Assembly: GCA_030062745.1 (NCBI GenBank)
Contig: CP099844.1
Location: 7,277,551-7,341,550 of the forward strand
DNA from: Capitulum mitella
Lineage: Eukaryota; Arthropoda; Thecostraca; Pollicipedomorpha; Pollicipedidae
Direction: 5' to 3'
DNA: 64,000 bases
A program made the position numbers and the translations under genes. Positions 1 to 50,879 of this stretch are shown one piece after another. The notes below the pieces were generated by a model. That model did no database searches. It saw nothing but the letters and a program-made list of their open reading frames with translations, and was not told the origin of the DNA. Within the stretch, counting starts at the first letter, position 1. The number at the start of each line of letters is the position of its first letter.

Positions 1-183
1 TTCAACATGGCTTCCTCATTGCTTAAAATAGTCTCTCTCCATATACCTTCATGCAATTTATGAACCAAGGCATGTTTTTCTTTGCACATAGAAATCACCA
101 AATCATGTACTTTAAGGAAAAGAAAGTATTATCGAAATAGATTATGTACCTTACAGGGCATCATGCACTCACCTATATATTTG

Positions 184-383
184 TGAGACTCACGTCTCAT
201 TCTGATTGTGTTGCTGCAGCACAACGTTCAAAGGCTGACCACAATCTGACCTCGCACGCACCTCGCCGCCCGGACCTCACCGCTCGGTCACATGACCGCC
301 GCCGGCTAAGGGTCGACGTCCGCAGACCCCAGGGTCACATGACGGCCAGCCCCACTCGCCAGACGCACGTCCAGCCTAACATC
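184..383 (-). repeat. LTR of the Gypsy-type fossil (3' copy)
   Basis: Direct repeat partner of 5133-5341. The shared core includes the plus-strand strings gacctcaccgctcggtcaca and aagggtcgacgtcc. On the minus strand the repeat starts near the right edge with a TTAGGCTGG/TGAGGCTGG-like end. No clear target duplication was found. Confidence 0.65.
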
Positions 384-845
384 TCTTCCCTCCTGTACGT
401 TGGAGGACGTCGAACGGTAACATCACGCATTCGCGCCACATCTCAACAATGTCGCCTCAACACGCGACGGTGGTCGAGCACTTTCTAGCGCGAAGCTGCG
501 CTGCACCACACCGAAGACCAGATACCGAGCGCCGGTCACTGAGGTCTCCCGCGACACGGCCGGAACCAAGAGTTTCCGGCCCCGCCAATGTAGAGGAACC
601 GCCGCCCAACCACCAGTCCCCAGGAACGCAGAAATTAGCTAAGTGGCGATTCGTTGCGAACGAGGTAACACAAAATAACAGGCGGAATCAGCGAAAGCAA
701 AATGTTTCTGTCAGCCGTCGGACCTTGCTCCAAAACCAGCCTATCAGCACTAATCTGCCCACCAAGCCAGAGGCCAGTGGAATCCGCTGCGTTTCGATCC
801 CCGCGTAACAAGGGTCAATGACACCAGTGGGTTGCCAGCGCTAAC

Positions 846-893
846 GACCCATGCCAATCCCAGCAGACTTCACTGCCGGGATTGGCATGGGTC
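846..893. repeat. strong perfect hairpin
   Basis: A 16-base arm (846-861, GACCCATGCCAATCCC) is exactly complementary to 878-893. After one mismatch the pairing resumes for four more pairs, leaving a 6-base loop. It lies inside the LTR fossil's span but matches no part of that element that I recognise. It could be the remains of a small palindromic insertion or a structured RNA. The two arms carry CCAAT/ATTGG. Confidence 0.7.
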
Positions 894-2637
894 GAACTCC
901 GCGGCGAGCTTTCACAGTCACGGACGGTTAGTCATCCAACGTAGGGTCGCCAGCCAACCAATGCCACTTTTCAATAACGAACACCAGTGCAACCAATGCA
1001 GTTATTATCACTAGTCGCCAATAGCCTTAAACAGATTACCAAAAGCAATATAACCAACTTACTATTGCACACCAACTGATCGGCGCAAACACAGTATTGT
1101 CTAATGACGTTGTTTTCAGAAAAAAAATCAAACCAATTTCCGTCCAAGTTGCGAGGAAGAAACTACGCAAGTGTCCAAGATTGTCTAATATCCAAGTCTC
1201 TCCAACAAAATTCCCATAAAAAATAATGCTTGCTTGCGCTTTGCCAACAGCTAGGTCTATGTCTATTGCTCGTTTTTGTTATAAAGATGACTTACAGTCA
1301 TGGCTGAGAGAACCAGGTGGAATGCAATGAACATGCATTCCAATTTTTTAGGCCTCTAGCGCTGGTCACAAGGCGGAATACATGGGAACTTTCATGATAT
1401 GCCATAAACAAATGTCCCCGCCCCTCTCCCACTCTCTGCGCTCTTTCGTGTCGCACCTACGCTTTTGCTTACGGATGAAATAGCTTACAATTAGACCATT
1501 AGGTGCGGTCACTTCTAAAACCAAAATGGATAATTTTTTTACATGTGTGATGCATCCTGCGTAGTCTTTCTAATATCACATTTGCGTGAAATACTAATCT
1601 TGTCATATGACAACAAATGTGGCGCATCTTCCTGGGCCATCAAGCAAAACAGGACCGACAGCATCAAGAGAGAAGTTTGCGTGGCATACTTTGATAAATA
1701 ACATGCATGGCTGGAAATCCAGTCATTTCATCTAAATAAATAGGGTAGGTGAAATGATGGTAGGGAAGTAGGGTTATAACAATAAGCCGGCAGATCTACT
1801 GAAATGCAGTTATTTTACAAGCCATTGTTATGGGGGAAAGGTGTGCTTGAACCATGTGGCACATCATGAATGCCAGTTCGCAGTTTAGATGTGTTGTGAA
1901 ATAGCTATGGGTTATTTGGAAACTATTAGACTTATTTCTGGTTTGCAAGGCTATGAGATAGTTGTGGGCCTTCCATAAGGGTAATGTTGTACCTTTGCTT
2001 CTGGGGTGCATGGGCAGCCCCAGCAATCTCAAAATTGAGCAATGTGCCTGTGGGGAATGCATGCGAAAATGGACCTAGAAGTTGGTTGAGCGCTCTCAGC
2101 AGTTTCATACAACTCCATTTGTGAGTCATCTGTGATTCATGAAATACTGAAGAACATTTAATCTAATCTGTTTGTTTGTTCTGGCAAATGTTGGCATAAT
2201 ATATTCTGTCCTGCTTGGATATAACCATAGCATTAAAAATAATGTCACATAGCATTGAAACAATGTGACACATTCCGGCTTTTTCTTAGAAATCCATAAT
2301 GATTGGTCTCTGGTGATTGATCAATGATTGGTCTCATAATGATCCATAATGATTGGTGAAACAAGACTGCTGCTAGGCGAGGTGGTATGCCTTCCGCAGA
2401 CCTGCACACAGGCGGCCCACATAGGCTGCTGTGGAGCCAGATTTGAATACATGAGGCGCATCAAGTTCAGCATCAGTCGGCAGACGGGGCTTGCGACCGA
2501 ACATAAGAAAGAAGGGGCTGTAGCCTAACGGTCTGTGCATTTGTCAACGATAATCCATCATCAACAGTGGCAAGCGAACATCCCGTTGGCATGGTTATTG
2601 TCGAGGTATTTCGAGAGGATGTTTAAAATGATTTTCA

Positions 2638-3365
2638 TCATGCGCTGAAATTTCCGTGCCCATGAGGATGACCACTGGAGGTGTTAGTCTTTTTAATACC
2701 TATTGGTCTGCACATCTCAGACATCACCTGGCTGCGGAAGTTGGCGGCACAATCAGAATGCAAGTACTTGGGACAGCCAAAACGGAAAAACAAGCCATCA
2801 CCTAGCGCGGTGGCAACCGCAGCTGCAGATATATCCGGCAGCGCAAACACATCACAATAACGTGCGAAATGGTCAGTACACGCCAACAGATGCTTGTTGC
2901 CACGAGCTGTCGTGGACAAGTTAGTCAGAAAGTCAATGGAAACCATCTCTCACGGCTCGGACGATCGCAACTCCCCTACTGACGCACGCGGCTATGGGAC
3001 TCACAGCGCTGGTAACAGTCAGCGTTAGCTGTCACAGTCGGCCACCAAAACTTCAGCTGAGCCAGGGAAAACAGCTAATCCCAGCTGAAGTGGCCTCCGG
3101 TCGAACTGGCGTGGAATGACGTCAGAACACCGGGCACAAGATTGGAAGGCATCACTACCTGCAACCGCTAAGCGTCACATGGGCGCCTTTTGAACACAAG
3201 GAACCAGACACCCTCCACAAGTCGCAGACGTGGCTGCTGCGCACCAATGGACGGGCGCCCTCTGAGACCTGATGACGCAACGGGCGTCGACGTGCTGAGA
3301 CATGGCGAGTAATCTCGGCAATGCTCGCGTCCCTCTCCTGCTCTCTCTGAATGTAGCTCAGGGAC
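2638..3365 (-). pseudogene. integrase remnant of the LTR fossil
   Basis: The minus strand reads MVSIDFLTNLS, then LLACTDHFARY and PKYLHSDCAANF, matching the rve integrase core of Ty3/Gypsy elements. Upstream, YIQREQERDASIAEI and RPLRHQVSEGARPLV resemble the stretch just before the zinc-binding head of such integrases. The piece is old and broken. Confidence 0.7.
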
Positions 3366-3569
3366 CGATTGGTGCTAGTTATCCGGTAACAGCTGACTGC
3401 TGGGATCGCGTTCATCTGACAGCCAGCATCGGCAGTCTCCAGGGGCCTCGTCGTCGCCAGAAATGATAAATCGTTCAGCGCCACGGTTTCAGACGCACGC
3501 TTCGCAGCATCATCCTGAGTCACAGAAAGGTGACCACAAACAGCCGGACTGGAAGCACTTGCAACCCAG

Positions 3570-3690
3570 TCAGGGTGGTGGGTTGCTGCGAGGATCCTGA
3601 AACCCGGGTCCGGTGCCGGGATCCCGTCTGTGGTTTCCCGACTTGTCAGGGCACGTCGGCACCAGATGTCCGACGCGACTGCACGCATAG
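3570..3690 (-). pseudogene. gag zinc-knuckle remnant of the LTR fossil
   Basis: The minus-strand translation contains CYACSRVGHLVPTC, a CX2CX4HX4C nucleic-acid-binding knuckle typical of the nucleocapsid end of gag. It lies between the 5' LTR and the integrase part, which fits the element's order. It is a fossil fragment. Confidence 0.6.
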
Positions 3691-18276: not shown

Positions 18277-18508
18277 CTGGGGAGCGCAGAGGCCACAGAG
18301 GTCAGACAGCGGTGTCAGCAGTGGAATGCTTCAGGAAGAATGGTTTGACTGCAGAGAGAGCGACCTCTTGTTTAGACCCTTCCGTTATCTGACGTCCGTT
18401 TCTTGGCTGCAAGCACAATGATCTCCTGACTTTTGTCACTTCGTAAGACTACGCCTGCCACCGGCTCATTAGTAGTTATTAGTTAAATGACCAAACAACA
18501 CATCTCAC

Positions 18509-19275
18509 CTCAAAATCCGGAGAATTCGAGCCAGGCGAGCAACCGCGCCGATCCAAAACACGCTCCGGAGACTGCCGAACAATATGCCCAGAACAACGAA
18601 CACGAAGAACGGCACGGTAGCCAGCAGGTCGAACACGTTCATCGGGTCAAGGAAGAAGCGCACCTTGCTTGGACACACAGCGAAGCGTGTCACCGTCTCC
18701 ACGAACAGCAACGCCACGCACACCACCTCCACGGAGTACGCCGCTATCAGCACCACGGGATCGCCGAATTCGTCCCACCCGTGCGTCCACGTCTGGACCA
18801 TGAACGCCAGCACGGCGACGGCGGTGACCAGGGCCGACGCGACGTCGGCGGCCGGCCTCTCCAGCCAGGCGGCCAGCCGGCCGCGGCAGCCGGCGGCCGC
18901 CGGCGGCGGCGGCGGCGGCGCATCCAGACCCTCCCTACTGCGCGCCAGCTGCTCGGCGGCCGCGCCCAGCCCGTAGAAGCGCACGTCGTCCAGGAAGACG
19001 TGCACCGGCACGCCGCTCGGCCGCTGCACGTCGCCGCCGCTCTGGTAGACGTGCAGCACACCCTCGAAGCTGGAGCTGCTCCTGTCGAAGAACAGCTCGC
19101 CACGCCCGTCAGCGAACGCGGCGCGCCGCTGCTCGTCGCCGAGCAGTGAGTGCGGCAGGCGGCGCAGCGTCGACGCGAGCGTCTCAAACCGCCTGCCGCT
19201 GACGTTGATTGTGATCCGCTCGTCCGAAGCTGGGCTGCTCTCGTCCCTCAGTAGAATGGACTCGTCCTTCTCCAT
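18509..19275 (-). CDS. Shaker-type voltage-gated potassium channel, exon 1 (T1, S1-S4)
   Basis: Encodes residues 1-256 of a plasma-membrane voltage-gated K+ channel subunit, four of which would form a channel. The start is the first ATG of the open stretch, in a strong context (aaaATGG). In order: the T1 tetramerisation domain (about 21-107) with ITINVSGRRFETL, LFFDRSSSSFEGVLHVYQSG and FYGLG; a proline run (120-125); S1 (about 145-161); S2 (174-195) with E183 and E193; S3 (211-232) with MNVFD; S4 from about 236. T1 lacks the zinc motif of Kv2-4, so it is Kv1-like. S4 arginines sit every third residue at 247, 250, 253, 256 and 259, while the outermost gating charge position is alanine (A244). 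The S2 charge-transfer phenylalanine is leucine (L190). The exon ends AG|GTGAGA at 18509; the 232-base intron is 18277-18508. A noncoding upstream exon is possible. Total 376 residues, shorter than typical Kv1. Confidence 0.9.
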
Positions 19276-19419
19276 TTTGAACTCTTCTGCGGATAGTCCG
19301 GAAACGTTCACAATCCTGAAAGAATGGCCTGATGGTTTGCACTTGCAGTCGAAGGTTAGATGAATTCTGTGCAGCAAACGTTGAAGCGCTTGTGAGACGA
19401 CAGCTGGCAATGTTTTCGT

Positions 19420-20045
19420 TGGAGAGAATAAGACGTCGAAAACGTGGGTTCGGAACCAATGTGCTGGAGATCTGGGGTCGCTCCGGGAAAGTGGGACGCC
19501 TGGAGAGGGATACTATCACGATTCACGAGATGCTCACGCAGTGGGCTCTTACCTGGCATGGGCTGCCAGTAGCGCCCAAGGTGTTCTGTATGTTCAGCAC
19601 CAGCCACTGCACTGACCCGCCGTTTGAAATCTTGGCGCTCCGCTTCTAACACAGTCCAGCCTACAGCAGCCACGCCGGGCGGCTGACTGGCTCCCCTTCA
19701 GCGCGAGGCTTCACAGGCACAAAAACGATGCACTCTGCGGTGTTGTTTATAGGCCGGGAGGAATGGCACGTCATTCGAGCCACGCTCGGCTGCTGCAGGT
19801 TTATTTGACTAACGTGGTAACATGGACGAGTTCGAGGTCATGCTCACGAGCGGTCCAAATGGAAGAGCATTGCCAGCCATCAACACGCCCTCACTCAACG
19901 AGTGCGACTGAGTTACCCCTGATGAATGCTGAAATAGAGTACACGTTTACAAAATCTGTGAAGAAAAGGACGAAACGAAAACCATATCTCGAAAGAACCC
20001 CACTTACCCCGCTGAGAGATTTCTAGATGCGCCGCTGGTCATCCG
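19420..20045. other. upstream flank of the channel gene, nothing assigned
   Basis: The promoter or 5' UTR should lie here or farther right. I see no TATA box, initiator or island that I can support. Confidence 0.3.
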
Positions 20046-27687: not shown

Positions 27688-29769
27688 CCGTAATCACCCA
27701 AGTATAATGCTCCCATTTTCGTCCCAAATTTTAACATTAAAAGTTGGGGGAGCATTATACTTGAGTATGTGAGAAATCCCAGTTTGCAAAGTCAAATTCT
27801 GTGTAAGGGGAGGTCAAATTATGTAATAAATTTTATTAGTACGTTTGTGGTATTTTATCAATCAATATAATACAGGAAGGGAAGTTGCAGGAATCGAGAA
27901 ATCTGCTTAATTGAGCATCCAAGCCGGAACGCCCCCATCGCTTAGTTTTTCTCAGCCACCGAATAATGCTTCATCTTATCGAGTGAAAGTTGACAATGAA
28001 CAACTTGTGTAAGCGTCACTCATTTCATTCTTTATGAACAATAGAGGCGATGATCATTCATAGGGACGATCAGAACGCTCATCATTCGTAGAGCGCTGAT
28101 CACAATAGAGACGGAGATCATTCATTGATTGGCCCGTGCAGGTAAAGAAGTTACAGTGAGAATGAACGAATGAACTTCTATGCGTCGAATGTTGTTAATT
28201 TACCGTTGTTAATTTGAACGACAATCATTCTGTATCCCCCAAACAGGCATGACTGACACTCCAGGATTGAAAAGAAAAAGGTCTTCTTATGAGGCTTCTT
28301 TCGAGCTAAAAGTCATCAAATTTGCAGAAGCAAATGACAACTGGGCTGCTTCCAGAGAATTCACAATTCCACAGGCAAATGTCAGGCTGTGGAGAAAACA
28401 GAAAGAACTTCTGGTTGAGCTGCCAAAAACCAAAAGAGCATGCAGGGGCCTTCCAGCCAAGTACCAGGACTTGGAAAAAGAGCTTGTGGAATGGGTGACT
28501 GACCAGAGATGCAGTGGCTACATTGTCACGATGCTTCACATCCAGCTAGAGGCTCTCAGAAGGAAGAGAGATCCAGGTTTCAAGGCTTCTCTGAATTGGG
28601 TCCACAGATTCATGAAGAGAAATGGCCTGAGCCTGAGGCAGAAGACAAAAATCTCCAAAAACTACCTTTAGAACTTGATAACAAAGTAATTTCATTTCAC
28701 TCCTATGTGTTGAATCAAAGAAAACTGCATGACTTTGAACTCTCACAGATTGGGAACATGGACGAAACACCTCTGTGTTTTGACATGCCTGGCAGTAGAA
28801 CAGTTGAGCCCAAGGGAAGCAAAACTGTCCAAATCAGAACAACTGGATATGAAAAGACACACTTCACCACAGTCCTGACCTGCATGGCAGATGGAACTAA
28901 GCTCAAGCCAATGGTGATTTTTAAACGAAAGACAGCTCCAAAAGAGAAATTTCCAGCTGGTGTGGTGATCCATGTGCATCCCAAAGGATGGATGGATGAA
29001 GAAGGAATTGTGCTGTGGCTCAATCGAGTTTGGAATAGCAGGCCTGGAGCTCTGAAAGGCAGGCCTGAAGAAGAAATCCTTTTTAGTGTGGGATCAGTTC
29101 AGAGCACACATGACTGACAAAGTGAAAAGAAAATGTGCTTCTCTCAACACCACCCAAGCAGTGATTCCTGGTGGCTTGACATCTATCCTGCAACCTCCAG
29201 ATGTCGTTCTGAACAAACCGTTCAAGGACAGAATGAGGCAAAAATGGATGGCTTGGATGGCTTCTGGTCAGCAAGAACAGACCAAGAGTGGAAACTTCAA
29301 GAGACATAGCCTGTCTCTAGTCTCTACTTGGGTCAAGGAAGCCTGGGATGACATTCCGTCTCAGATGGTTGTCAAGAGTTTCCTGAAGACTGGAATCTCA
29401 AACGATTTGGATGGCACAGAAGACGATGAACTCTGGAAAGAAGACACAGAAGAAGAAAATGAAGAAGATGAAGACCAACTTGACCCCAACTGGGATACAG
29501 ATGCAAGACTAACTCCGGAAGAGTTTCATGAACTTTTTGATGACAGTGATGATGATGACTTTGATGGATTATGATTGAAATGCAGAAAATGTAATTTTTT
29601 TATCGGAAATAAATTTTTTTCATAAAAAATCTGAAAACTTCTATTTAACAGAAAAATCTGAAAACTTAGGGGGAGCGTTATACTTGGGTACGACAAAAAA
29701 GACCTGTTTTTCGATTCAAAAGTGGGGGAGCATTATACTTGGGTAAGCATTATACTTGGGTGATTACGG
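27688..29769 (+). mobile_element. pogo/Tigger-like DNA transposon, near-complete
   Basis: 2,082 bp bounded by inverted ends CCGTAATCACCCAAGTATAA (24 bases match between ends) and TA duplications at 27686-27687 and 29770-29771. Extra copies of the end motif lie inside: an inverted one at about 27747 and direct ones at about 29669 and 29723, likely transposase-binding repeats. It carries one transposase reading region (28249-29574). It sits inside copy C of the minisatellite-bearing family and looks young. Confidence 0.9.
28249..29574 (+). pseudogene. pogo/Tigger-like transposase with two frameshifts
   Basis: A cut-and-paste transposase of the CENP-B/DDE_1 type. From ATG 28249, KRKRSSYEASFELKVIKFAE begins the first helix-turn-helix; the second, CENP-B-type DNA-binding part spans about residues 75-135 (NWVHRFMKRNGLSLRQKTK). 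The catalytic core follows with NMDETPLCFDMP (first Asp), VWDQFRAHMTD (second Asp) and ILQPPDVVLNKPFKD (third). The tail is strongly acidic, ending FDDSDDDDFDGL with a stop at 29572-29574. The frame changes near 28655 and again near 29075, both at homopolymer runs (AAAAA and TTTTT), so either the copy is freshly inactivated or the assembly has small indel errors. No other break is seen. Confidence 0.9.
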
Positions 29770-40489: not shown

Positions 40490-40730
40490 CCGTCGGGGCA
40501 AATTGCCAACGTCGGCCGCCGTCACGGCGCCACAACACGGTACGGCGGCCCGAGGTCGGTGCCTGATGTCGCTGGGGACGGCCGCCGGGCCGGCACGACA
40601 TGCCGCGGGCCGCCGTCACGTCCCTTCAGCACGGCAGGTGGGCCCGGGCCCCGACCCCGTCCCCGAAGAACAACGTCTCCGACCAACAAAAACAACGGCA
40701 GCTCCACTGTCGAAACACCATGCACTGAGA
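40490..40730. other. CpG-rich segment
   Basis: GC-rich, with mirror frames on both strands. It leads directly into the 88-bp duplication with CCAAT and CRE-like motifs, so a promoter is conceivable. No transcript start is visible. Confidence 0.3.
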
Positions 40731-40892
40731 GGGCCGACCAATGGCCCAGCACTCATCGCCCAATCCGGTGAAGAGCACTGACGTCGACTGACGGCCGTTT
40801 GACGGCCATGCACTGAGAGGGCCGACCAATGGCCCAGCACTCATCGCCCAATCCGATGAAGAGCACTGACGTCGACTGACGGCCGTTTGACG
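40718..40892 (+). repeat. 88-bp tandem duplication with CCAAT and CRE-like motifs
   Basis: Two nearly identical units begin CCATGCACTGAGAGGGCCGA at 40718 and 40806. One difference is seen by eye (ATCCGGTGAAG versus ATCCGATGAAG). Each contains GACCAATGG (CCAAT box) and TGACGTCGACTGACGG (CRE-like). Confidence 0.85.
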
Positions 40893-41124
40893 GCTCTCTC
40901 AAGCCAGCGCCTCACAAACAGCGCACAGAACGCGAGAGCTGTTTGTCAGAACGCTGTGGCCCGTCTGTACCACAGTAGCGGTCACGAGATGACTTGGACG
41001 CTCGGTGCCAAATGCAGATAGGAGTCAGCTGAGTTAATTAAACGTGCATTCATATGATGGTTTATCAACAGGCACCGACTACATGTAGCCTGGCAACAGG
41101 GCAGAGCGCCAGCGGGTTGGAAAT

Positions 41125-47869: not shown

Positions 47870-48292
47870 CGGACGAGTTCGAAACTCGTTCTGACGACGG
47901 ACCCCGAGGGAGGATCGCCGTGGAGGACGGCGTGGCCTGGAAGACCCCGCCGCCTTAATATTTACTCGCCTCCCCCCGAGACAGGGACCGGAGAGACCAG
48001 ACAGGCCTCGTGACACCCCGAAACCTTCAAATGGCGGCCGGCGTCGGGAATAATTCTGCGCCCGACGGGCCGCTGCTCTGCGGCTGCTGGGGCCGGCCCG
48101 CTCGGTATGCACGGCCGGCCGGCGCCGCGCGCTCGAGCGCCCGCCCGGGTCAGCCGTGGAACGGTCCGACGGCAAAATGCGGCCGGCTTGTTACTTGGCG
48201 CTCCTCCGTTGCGCTGTCACCGGGCGGGCGCGACTCAGCAGGCCCACGTTCAGGCGTCGCTTTCCGGCGGACGGCGCCGGCCCGCGTCGACA
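47870..48292. promoter_or_regulatory. CpG-island-like segment before a candidate first exon
   Basis: A strongly GC- and CpG-rich block between AT-rich flanks, immediately upstream of an ATG in a strong context at 48293. No TATA box is seen. Mirror frames on both strands are compositional. Confidence 0.4.
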
Positions 48293-48338
48293 ATGGAGTT
48301 CATTTCAGTCGCCGGTTACGGAGGAAATGAACTCGACA
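48293..48338 (+). CDS. candidate first coding exon of an unidentified gene
   Basis: The ATG context is gacaATGG (A at -3, G at +4), followed by 15 codons MEFISVAGYGGNELD and a donor A|GTAAGC at 48339. Codon use looks ordinary. The exon would leave one base of the next codon. No matching downstream exon is identified in the window, so the partner must be beyond recognition, farther right, or absent. Without splicing the frame runs to a stop at about 48478. I do not recognise the peptide. Confidence 0.3.
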
Positions 48339-48589
48339 GTAAGCGTGTGTCGCGCGGTGTTGGGATGAGCAGTCTTGTTCAACAGGTGAAGCGTTTGATG
48401 ATGCTGAAAGCGCGGGCAGCGCCGCCGCTCGAAAGCGTGGACTCCTGCAAATGCAATAGCAAGCCTCCATCAAATTAACTACAACTGCGACGACATCCGC
48501 GAGGACAAAGACAGGCTAAACTGCTCACCGTATGCTTATCAAACACCCTTGGAACAAAAAGCATTGTCAAGAGCTGGACTGGCGCTCGA

Positions 48590-48790
48590 CATCTTTTGCG
48601 CGATCCGGATCAGGATGTGAACGACAGTAATGTCATCCGGATCAGCACTTCAATCACTGCTATTTTTTACAGTCTGTTCCGAATCAAATGTTAAATGTTA
48701 TTCACGCAAACTTTTTCAAGAGTGATCCTAATCAAACGTGGTTCGCACTAATTTTTGAAAGACTGATCCGGATCAAACAGTGGTTCAAAG
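48590..48790 (+). repeat. GATCCGGATCAAA-type spaced repeats
   Basis: Copies of GATCCGGATC or its variants followed by AAA/AGG occur at about 46-base spacing (48679, 48724, 48770), with TGGTTC and TTTTTGAAA between them. The same family occurs at 50600-50790. Confidence 0.55.
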
Positions 48791-48961
48791 TATCAATTAT
48801 ATGCCAGGGCCATCACCTTTGTTATATATATATACATATATACGTGTCATCACTGTCTATTGCTTTATGATATGAAACCTGTGTCTATATAATGGTTTAA
48901 AAATAGCAAAATGTGTGCTACACTACGTCTGCACATGGAAGACGGCTACATGGTTTTAGGG

Positions 48962-49245
48962 CAATAGTTCGTCGGACAAAAGTTCGTCGGAGTAAAGTTC
49001 GTCCGATAAAAGTCCATCGTGCAAAGGTTCGTCGTGAAAAAGTTCGTCTAGGGCAAAAGTTCGTCCAGGGCAAAAGTTCGGCGAGGACAAAAGTTCGTCT
49101 TGCGGAAGTTCGTCTAGGGCAAAGGTTCGTCTGAGACAAAAGTTCTTCTCACAGAAGTTCGTCTAGGATAAATGTCCGTCATGCAGAAGTTTGTCTAAAA
49201 CAAGAGTTTGTCAGGGGCAAAAGTTCGTCTAGGACAAGGTCATCT
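48962..49245 (+). repeat. AGTTCGTC tandem array, left arm of a fold-back
   Basis: About 16 units of 16-19 bases of type AAAAGTTCGTCTAGGGC. The right arm at 49465-49745 is the same array in reverse complement. Frames such as VRRTKVRRSKVR are repeat translations. Confidence 0.85.
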
Positions 49246-49400
49246 CGCTAATGGAAAAGGTTCGTTGTGCCAAAGATTCCTATGGAAAAGGCGTATAGGA
49301 AAAATGCTCGTAAGGGAAAGCGTTCATAGGGGAAAGTTTCGCAGCCATGGGCTCATATACTTTAGGTTCGTATCGGAAGAGGAAGAGACCTAAAACAGTA

Positions 49401-49460
49401 ACCTAACCTAACCTTATCTAACCTAGCCTAACCTAACCTAACCTAACCTAACCTAACCTA
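49401..49460 (-). repeat. interstitial TTAGG telomere-type array
   Basis: Twelve consecutive pentamers, nine of them ACCTA exactly and three with one change (ACCTT, ATCTA, GCCTA). On the minus strand this is (TTAGG)n, the arthropod telomere unit. It lies between the two arms of the AGTTCGTC fold-back. Confidence 0.9.
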
Positions 49461-49464
49461 TGCC

Positions 49465-49745
49465 AACCTTTTATCCTAGACGAACCCTTGTCCCCGGCGA
49501 GCTTTTGTCCTAAACGAATTTCTGCGAGACAAACTGTTGTCCTGGACTAACTCTTGTCCTAGACGAAGTTATGTCCTATACGGACTTTTGTTGGACAAAC
49601 TTTTGTCCTCGACGAACTTTTTCCATACAAACTTTTGCGAGACGAACTTTTGCCCTAGACGAACCTTTGTCCGACGAACTTTTTTCCTTACGAACTATTA
49701 CCCGACGAACTATTGCCCTACGAACTTAAGTCCGACGAACGCCTG
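49465..49745 (-). repeat. AGTTCGTC tandem array, right arm of a fold-back
   Basis: Units such as TCCTAGACGAACTTTTG run in reverse orientation to 48962-49245, with similar length and degeneracy. Confidence 0.85.
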
Positions 49746-49849
49746 CCCGAAAACCGGCTACATGCATATAGTGCACATGTATATAAATGTGCTGCATGAA
49801 ATATTGCATATAATTAGGAAGACTCCACTTGCTACGTGATTCGCTGGGA

Positions 49850-50595
49850 TAAAAGGCAAGAATGTGGCATATTATTACTATGTATCTAAAATTAGAACAT
49901 TGCCAAGGCAGTCATAGTTTCGGGTGCCCGTTCATGGCATCTTTATCTACTGACTTCGGCATTTTAATGCCGATTGCCCTCTGATATTTGTCCTTCACTA
50001 CTTTCCCAATTACGGCGCATTAGTGACAATGATTATCTGTGCTGTGTACTAGCCGCAGACTCGACAGAGGCAGGTGCTTAGGGATTGTTTGGCCAAAAAT
50101 AAATGGAACAATTGGCATGATGACTATTGAATAACACAAAGTAAGTAACGTGATGATTTAACGAATCGCCCCGGCTGCCACGAGGGCAGCTGTCTCTATC
50201 GACTTGCCCAAACAAGGACACTTGCTAGTCGCCTACCAACCTAACCAGAGCATGGTGGTGGGTGTTTGACACCAATAGAAGTACCAACGGGGTTTCATAG
50301 TTCACTACACGAAAAAGGACCGCATTCTTCGTGGAGACCTTTAATCTTACCTTTTCTGGGTGGCGTATGCTTGGTACTTGGTATCCTTCCAGCTAGCTGG
50401 GCTGTGGAAGTCTGAACCTTGTGGTGTTGTGAAAGAGAGTTGGTTGTGTGCCTCACTGGCATCACCTTCAATGTAATTTGGTTTAGTGGATTACTACCTG
50501 GAGGTATTCTTCAAAAGCGTATTGTCGTGCCATTTTATTATCTTGCTTTACATATAGAATTTGATCACATTGAATTAGATTGACGGTGTAGCTGA
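49850..50595. other. gene-free stretch
   Basis: No gene or clear repeat. Confidence 0.4.
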
Positions 50596-50599
50596 GCCA

Positions 50600-50790
50600 T
50601 ATCAAAATCAGGATCACAATGCTTGGATTCGTCTCAGCATTTGAATCACGGCCGTTTTTCAAATTCTGATCCGAATCAAATGTGATTCATGGTTGCATTT
50701 CCAAAACTAATCCGGATCAAATGCGATTTGCCCCAAAAACATGTGATCATTCCGATCAGATCCGGACCAGAATCAAGCACTGGTCTGTCG
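50600..50790 (+). repeat. GATCCGGATCAAA-type spaced repeats, second block
   Basis: TCCGAATCAAATGTGATTCA and TCCGGATCAAATGCGATTTG lie about 42 bases apart, in the same orientation as the block at 48590-48790. Confidence 0.5.
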
Positions 50791-50879
50791 AGAACAAACG
50801 TTGGGTGCGACTGAAATTCTTCTGGTCACCGTTTGACCTTAGCCTGAGGTTGAAATGTCCGTTACCGTTTTAAGCCCTG

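Follow-up and report, generated by a model that had tools for sequence, protein, structure and literature searches.

Arrays of telomere-type repeats that lie inside chromosomes are often taken as traces of fusions or healed breaks. One such array, a short run of CCTAA-type pentamers between two inverted tandem-repeat arms, occurs in Capitulum mitella within a stretch of 64,000 nucleotides (hereafter the window) on contig C6 of the genome (477 Mb in 16 contigs), and it raises the question of how telomere-like DNA came to stand there. We put the probability at roughly three in four that the feature is a non-autonomous fold-back DNA transposon, probably Merlin-like, with an inherited TTAGG core. 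Most likely the telomere-like DNA arrived with the transposon; a scar left here by a chromosome fusion or a healed break is not supported.

Anatomy of the window element

An earlier note on the window had described two facing tandem-repeat arms around about twelve CCTAA pentamers, and tandem-repeat detection with TRF, a search for inverted pairs, and the folding energy all agree with that description. The unit and its parts are as follows.

48952-49755 (804 bp): whole unit, with GG...CC ends and the 8-bp target-site duplication GGCTACAT outside both ends
48944..48951 (no strand): left target-site duplication, the 8-mer GGCTACAT outside the left end
48952..49238 (+): left arm, the terminal GGTTTTAGGGCA and then tandem units of the CAAAAGTTCGTC type (TRF; ends compared across 40 copies)
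49239..49398 (+): spacer of degenerate GGTTCGTATCGGAAAAGG-type units, with ACCTAAAACAG just before the array (copy consensus)
49399..49460 (+): telomere-type array, (TAACC)12.4, which is TTAGG on the minus strand (TRF)
49461..49467 (+): junction of array and right arm, probably a deletion joint from which a module X and an inner right arm would have been removed
49468..49755 (+): right arm, inverse tandem units of the GACGAACTTTTG type, ending in GCCCGAAAACC (TRF; consensus right end GACGAACTTCTGCCCGAAAACC)
49756..49763 (no strand): right target-site duplication, the 8-mer GGCTACAT outside the right end

TRF places the (TAACC)12.4 array at 49399-49460 with 89% matches, the left-arm tandem array (CAAAAGTTCGTC type, 17-bp period) at 48957-49237, and the right-arm tandem array, built of the inverse unit, at 49468-49740. 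Individual left-arm units are 15 to 17 bp long (AAAAGTTCGTC). The inverted-repeat search found 58 inverted pairs in 48000-50800, and the 25 listed join the arms at 71% to 90% complementarity, the longest over 87 nt at 71%. Folded as single-stranded DNA, 48957-49755 reaches -173 kcal/mol, against -94.5 +/- 4.6 kcal/mol for 20 dinucleotide shuffles (z -17). Long inverted repeats made of tandem units are a hallmark of Foldback-type TIR transposons, and the window element has them. The array lies between the arms, as the earlier note had it, but off centre, directly against the right arm, with a degenerate, arm-like spacer of about 160 bp between it and the left arm.

A 24-nt motif around GATCCGGATCAAA occurs five times beside the element, with copies on both sides (48665-48777 and 50657-50721). 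Elsewhere in the window, 28213-29574 holds a broken transposase, with an HTH_Tnp_Tc5 domain and two DDE_1 pieces in different frames, which we take to be pogo/Tigger-like. A frame with BTB_2 and Ion_trans domains at 18508-19512 on the minus strand would suit an exon of a gene for a voltage-gated potassium channel, and 40718-40894 consists of two 88-bp tandem copies that match at 98% and are apparently recent.

A dispersed family with a telomere-type core

A 901-bp query returned 802 first-look candidates, the best 40 of which were scored and fetched with their flanks. These 40 copies are spread over 15 of the 16 contigs. Among the 39 outside the window, 31 have alignments that start at about query base 52-118 and end at 780-865, with 71% to 78% identity, and eight are partial alignments. 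Oriented alike, the copies run from left arm to spacer to CCTAA array and then into either the right arm or module X. The same architecture at 40 loci on 15 contigs argues against an assembly artefact.

Both ends could be recognised in 29 of the 40 copies; the other 11, with one end unrecognised, were omitted from the duplication count. An exact target duplication of at least 8 bp flanks 10 of these 29 copies, compared with 1 of 812 mispaired ends. When one mismatch is allowed, the count rises to 20 of 29 against 0.6% of mispaired ends, a figure somewhat favoured by the procedure, which picked candidate ends with the duplication as part of the score; the remaining nine copies show no acceptable duplication. 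The right-end 22-mer GACGAACTTCTGCCCGAAAACC has 328 matches genome-wide (up to two mismatches) and its reversed control none, and many copies begin with GA, not GG, at the left end. The family thus has the dispersed copies with target-site duplications (20 of 29) that belong to the structural class of Foldback-type TIR transposons, and the window feature is an old copy of it, with recognisable ends and target duplications.

The earlier note had left it to a genome search whether the arms are accompanied by telomere-type repeats at other loci. They are: a CCTAA-type array in the same orientation, counted as a cluster of at least six overlapping pentamer hits in the core region, is present in 39 of 40 copies, a proportion that is biased upward because the copies were those most similar to a query that itself includes the core. 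At least 10 hits occur in 33 of the 40 copies and at least 12 in 31. The one copy that lacks the array (L041) has lost its right half, and the six weak arrays with fewer than 10 hits are those of L019, L024, L027, L028, L032, and L035. The sole cluster of opposite orientation in a core region, in L047, belongs to a second, inserted element (insertion read by eye).

A look that does not depend on the core started from the right ends. Of the 328 matches, 100 were listed, and at least 33 of these have one or more core markers (the spacer-array junction, the array-right-arm junction, or X) on the correct strand and at the correct distance. Markers accompany 17 of the 61 exact and 16 of the 39 one-mismatch right ends; all of these are lower bounds because the marker lists are incomplete (100 of 361 matches with a control of 2, 71 of 71, and, for X, 100 of 539). 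Among the markers listed, none in the wrong orientation accompanies any of the 61 exact right ends tested.

Module X sets apart a longer form of the element. At three of the 38 junctions scored, those of L043, L046, and L047, the array leads into X and not into the right arm, and the other 35, the window copy included, are of the short form. X of L047 reads CTCTTTGTTGGACCGAACCAAGTCCGATCGCAC..., and a 20-mer from X has 539 matches in the genome (up to two mismatches; control 0). An inner right arm and then the outer right arm come after X in L046, and the spacer of the window copy (49239..49398) is the inverse of this inner right arm. In L043, about 1.7 kb lie between X and an inner right arm; this locus is not an obvious autonomous copy, because none of its stop-to-stop frames exceeds 130 aa.

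Since the longer copies have X after the array, the window copy seems to have arisen by internal deletion of X and the inner right arm, and array plus X looks like the original centre of the element. A deletion within the long form, perhaps through end joining at a short CTTTG-type match, would have left the array against the outer right arm, and the short form would then have been amplified.

Merlin transposase genes and other telomere-type arrays

We found no transposase between the family's own arms in the copies read. The ends and target duplications suggest cut-and-paste movement by a transposase supplied in trans, which would recognise the ends, each insertion duplicating 8-9 bp of target. 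Because of the GG...CC ends and the 8-9 bp duplications, we searched the genome for MULE and Merlin transposases. Merlin elements are described, in the part of PMC8101967 available to us, as having terminal 5'-GG-3' and 8-9 bp duplications; the family agrees with both features, which are not specific to Merlin.

A profile search for the Merlin transposase (PF12762, DDE_Tnp_IS1595) gave 36 loci. One of them (L104), 1.8 kb from an X match, has the transposase C-terminus followed directly by a TTAGG array and X. A DNA search with this X-array-transposase stretch, in which the best 40 of 1320 candidates were scored, found the array contiguous with the transposase C-terminus at at least 10 of the 36 PF12762 loci: 10 loci, L104 included, cover the array together with 390 bp or more of transposase (the other nine are 80% to 86% identical), and at three more loci the match covers the array and about 140 bp of transposase. 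Another Merlin locus (L105) has a 306-aa frame with PF12762 (2.5e-21), a stop codon, a CCTAA array of about 510 bp that holds 69 CCTAA, and then X, beyond which it shares about 1 kb more with L104. A 34-mer bridging the L105 stop codon and the array has four matches, itself included (up to three mismatches; control 0). X of L105 aligns with seven X copies elsewhere, three of them in the fold-back family, at scores of 42 to 75, and with the transposase-linked X of L104 at 111; the top score from 500 shuffles of each was 26.

The array-plus-X unit is thus common to the longer copies of the fold-back family and to Merlin-type transposase genes, where it stands after the stop codon. The TTAGG array would be inherited cargo that came along with the element, and the core of the family probably derives from a Merlin ancestor and not the reverse. 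A Merlin transposase may well mobilise the fold-back family. On sequence grounds we rate membership of the family in the Merlin superfamily as probable, and not higher, because of the many copies that begin with GA and because the ends and the duplication length also fit Mutator. The arm units of the family are absent from L104 and L105, the two of 36 Merlin loci read, L105 being read short of its left end.

The same mobile family could instead be moved by a Mutator-type (Phantom-like) transposase, with the TTAGG-X core exchanged with Merlin by recombination, which we consider unlikely. Mutator is the usual assignment for fold-back elements whose TIRs contain tandem units and whose duplications measure 8-10 bp (PMC3169594 and PMC4079207, from the portions available), the ends and duplication length of our family fit such elements, its duplications fall within the 8-10 bp given for Mutator/Phantom, and the missing family arms at the two Merlin loci are as this alternative would have it. 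Against it, the MULE profile PF10551 found six loci, the best at 48.6 bits, whereas Merlin loci are commoner (36) and at least 10 of them share the core. Three of the six MULE loci (L081-L083) were read; none has a family end or an inverted repeat of 30 nt or longer, and on these three Mutator was set aside as the less likely transposase source. Five scattered GTTCGTC 7-mers occur in L082.

Telomere-type arrays are abundant in this genome. Exact 30-mers of six CCTAA units have 1916 plus 1826 overlapping matches (control 0), and we sampled the first 20 clusters in order, which all fall on C1 from 2.5 to 10.8 Mb, a small and local sample. Outside the masked array, each of the 20 has sequence in common with at least one other, in the case of L088 just 52 bp. 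Nine belong to a family F2, which has nearly full-length copies of 80% to 92% identity (best 40 of 960 candidates scored), seven to a short palindromic family F3, and two (L085 and L086) to a family F4; L093 and L088 have the array plus X. F3 looks younger than the family of the window element, because its shared stretch is 89% to 99% alike in the sampled copies, and 9-bp duplications were read by eye in L084 and L089. In the F3 copies L084, L087, L089, and L097, a central TTAGG array lies between arms of about 130-150 bp.

Nine of the 20 sampled arrays (six F3, two F4, and L093) lie between inverted arms, compared with six of 120 random window centres, two of which fall in the window's own element; TTAGG arrays in fold-back elements thus recur in families of differing arm sequence. 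X was not seen in the sampled copies of F3 or in L085 and L086, so neither shows a link to the Merlin unit. At L104, a second array-X unit in inverse orientation follows an apparent F2 left half (read by eye). Positions 1-3601 of that locus, with the two inverse units about 1.5 kb apart, look like an element inserted in an element.

Tentatively, and at a little short of even odds, the pattern may be general: in the Merlin lineage, the TTAGG array would be a standard module behind the transposase stop codon, and non-autonomous families that differ in their arms, some of them fold-back and others not, would carry it or have exchanged it. The arrays would serve as exchange joints, and most interstitial arrays in the genome would be transposon cargo and not scars of chromosome breakage or fusion.

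Whether telomere repeats are useful to a transposon, through protein binding, telomerase recruitment, or as a recombination joint, or are passive cargo is a question that these elements raise. We think it improbable that the array is functional in the transposon, either by binding telomere proteins or telomerase or as a recombination joint at which halves of unrelated elements are exchanged. Such a role would suit the finding that differently armed element types carry the array (9 of the 20 C1 arrays between inverted arms) and that a family arm, an F2-like end, or a transposase can form alternative left halves before array-X. By contrast, array and flank decay at about the same rate, so that nothing points to maintenance of the array itself: across 38 copies, median identity to perfect TAACC is 0.856 (0.50-1.00) and that of the spacer to its own consensus 0.874 (0.57-0.93), a crude comparison in which the choice of array segments relied on their pentamers. 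These 38 copies of the family show no homogenisation of the array. In the window element, the array probably has no function of its own.

Chromosomal scars and comparison with known systems

The earlier note had also offered a healed break or an end fusion. A local scar, either a break healed by telomerase or fused chromosome ends, is highly improbable. A 739-aa open frame of the genome does contain a telomerase RNA-binding domain (PF12009), and mammals offer documented cases of telomere repeats inserted at double-strand breaks (PMC7215372, in the part available), but a fusion should leave head-to-head TTAGG/CCTAA arrays at a unique locus and a healed break an insertion into unique ancestral sequence, whereas here the array has a single orientation, is the core part of a repeated element, recurs in that orientation in 39 of 40 dispersed copies, and lies within a unit that the target duplication bounds as a whole. 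Neither of the two proposals is supported: the array belongs to a repeated mobile element and is no one-off chromosomal scar. The third proposal, a mobile fold-back unit that had picked up telomere sequence, stands as regards the mobile unit, given the dispersed copies, the target duplications, and the recurrent core array; in the window copy the telomere sequence is best read as inherited.

An array among the 32 contig ends (400 bp each) was found only at the start of C10 (L067, C10:1-400). It holds 30 CCTAA, is imperfect, and has the orientation expected of a telomere, and the next highest end has two; the first 400 bases of C1 are all N. With one array in 32 ends, the assembly mostly falls short of the telomeres, and TTAGG is only the putative chromosome-end repeat. 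Because the 20 sampled C1 arrays and the window array all lie in repeated elements, reading such arrays as fusions or breaks could mislead karyotype inference in this lineage.

Several known systems resemble the family in part. Mammalian short interstitial telomeric sequences are likewise short and away from chromosome ends; in the part of PMC7215372 available, they are insertions seen against empty orthologous loci, whereas the window array is part of a mobile element. The Cg_HINE Helentrons of oyster are also non-autonomous, spread tandem arrays, and have modular flanks and central repeats, but they belong to the Helentron class and, as the accessible portion of PMC7492417 describes them, their central repeats are satellite-like rather than telomeric.

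Closer in structure are Tm1 of Meloidogyne (PMC3169594) and Tetris of Drosophila virilis (PMC4079207), which, according to the portions of these papers available, share with our family the dispersed inverted repeats made of tandem units, the 8-10 bp target duplications, and copies without a transposase. A telomere-type core does not figure in those same portions. In Tm1, some elements code for a Phantom-like (Mutator) transposase (PMC3169594, available part), whereas none was found inside the family arms read; Tetris was assigned to a Mutator-type transposase by inference of its authors (PMC4079207, available part).

A limited literature search turned up no Merlin or fold-back element described as having a telomere-type core, and the part of PMC7998251 at hand describes none. 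Merlin elements (IS1595/IS1016-like), in the available part of PMC8101967, are described without a TTAGG array, and the family differs from them in having no transposase in the copies read and no arm homology to L104 or L105. The family resembles them in its GG termini and 8-9 bp duplication (PMC8101967, same part), and it has the core unit of CCTAA array and X in common with the Merlin loci of its own genome.
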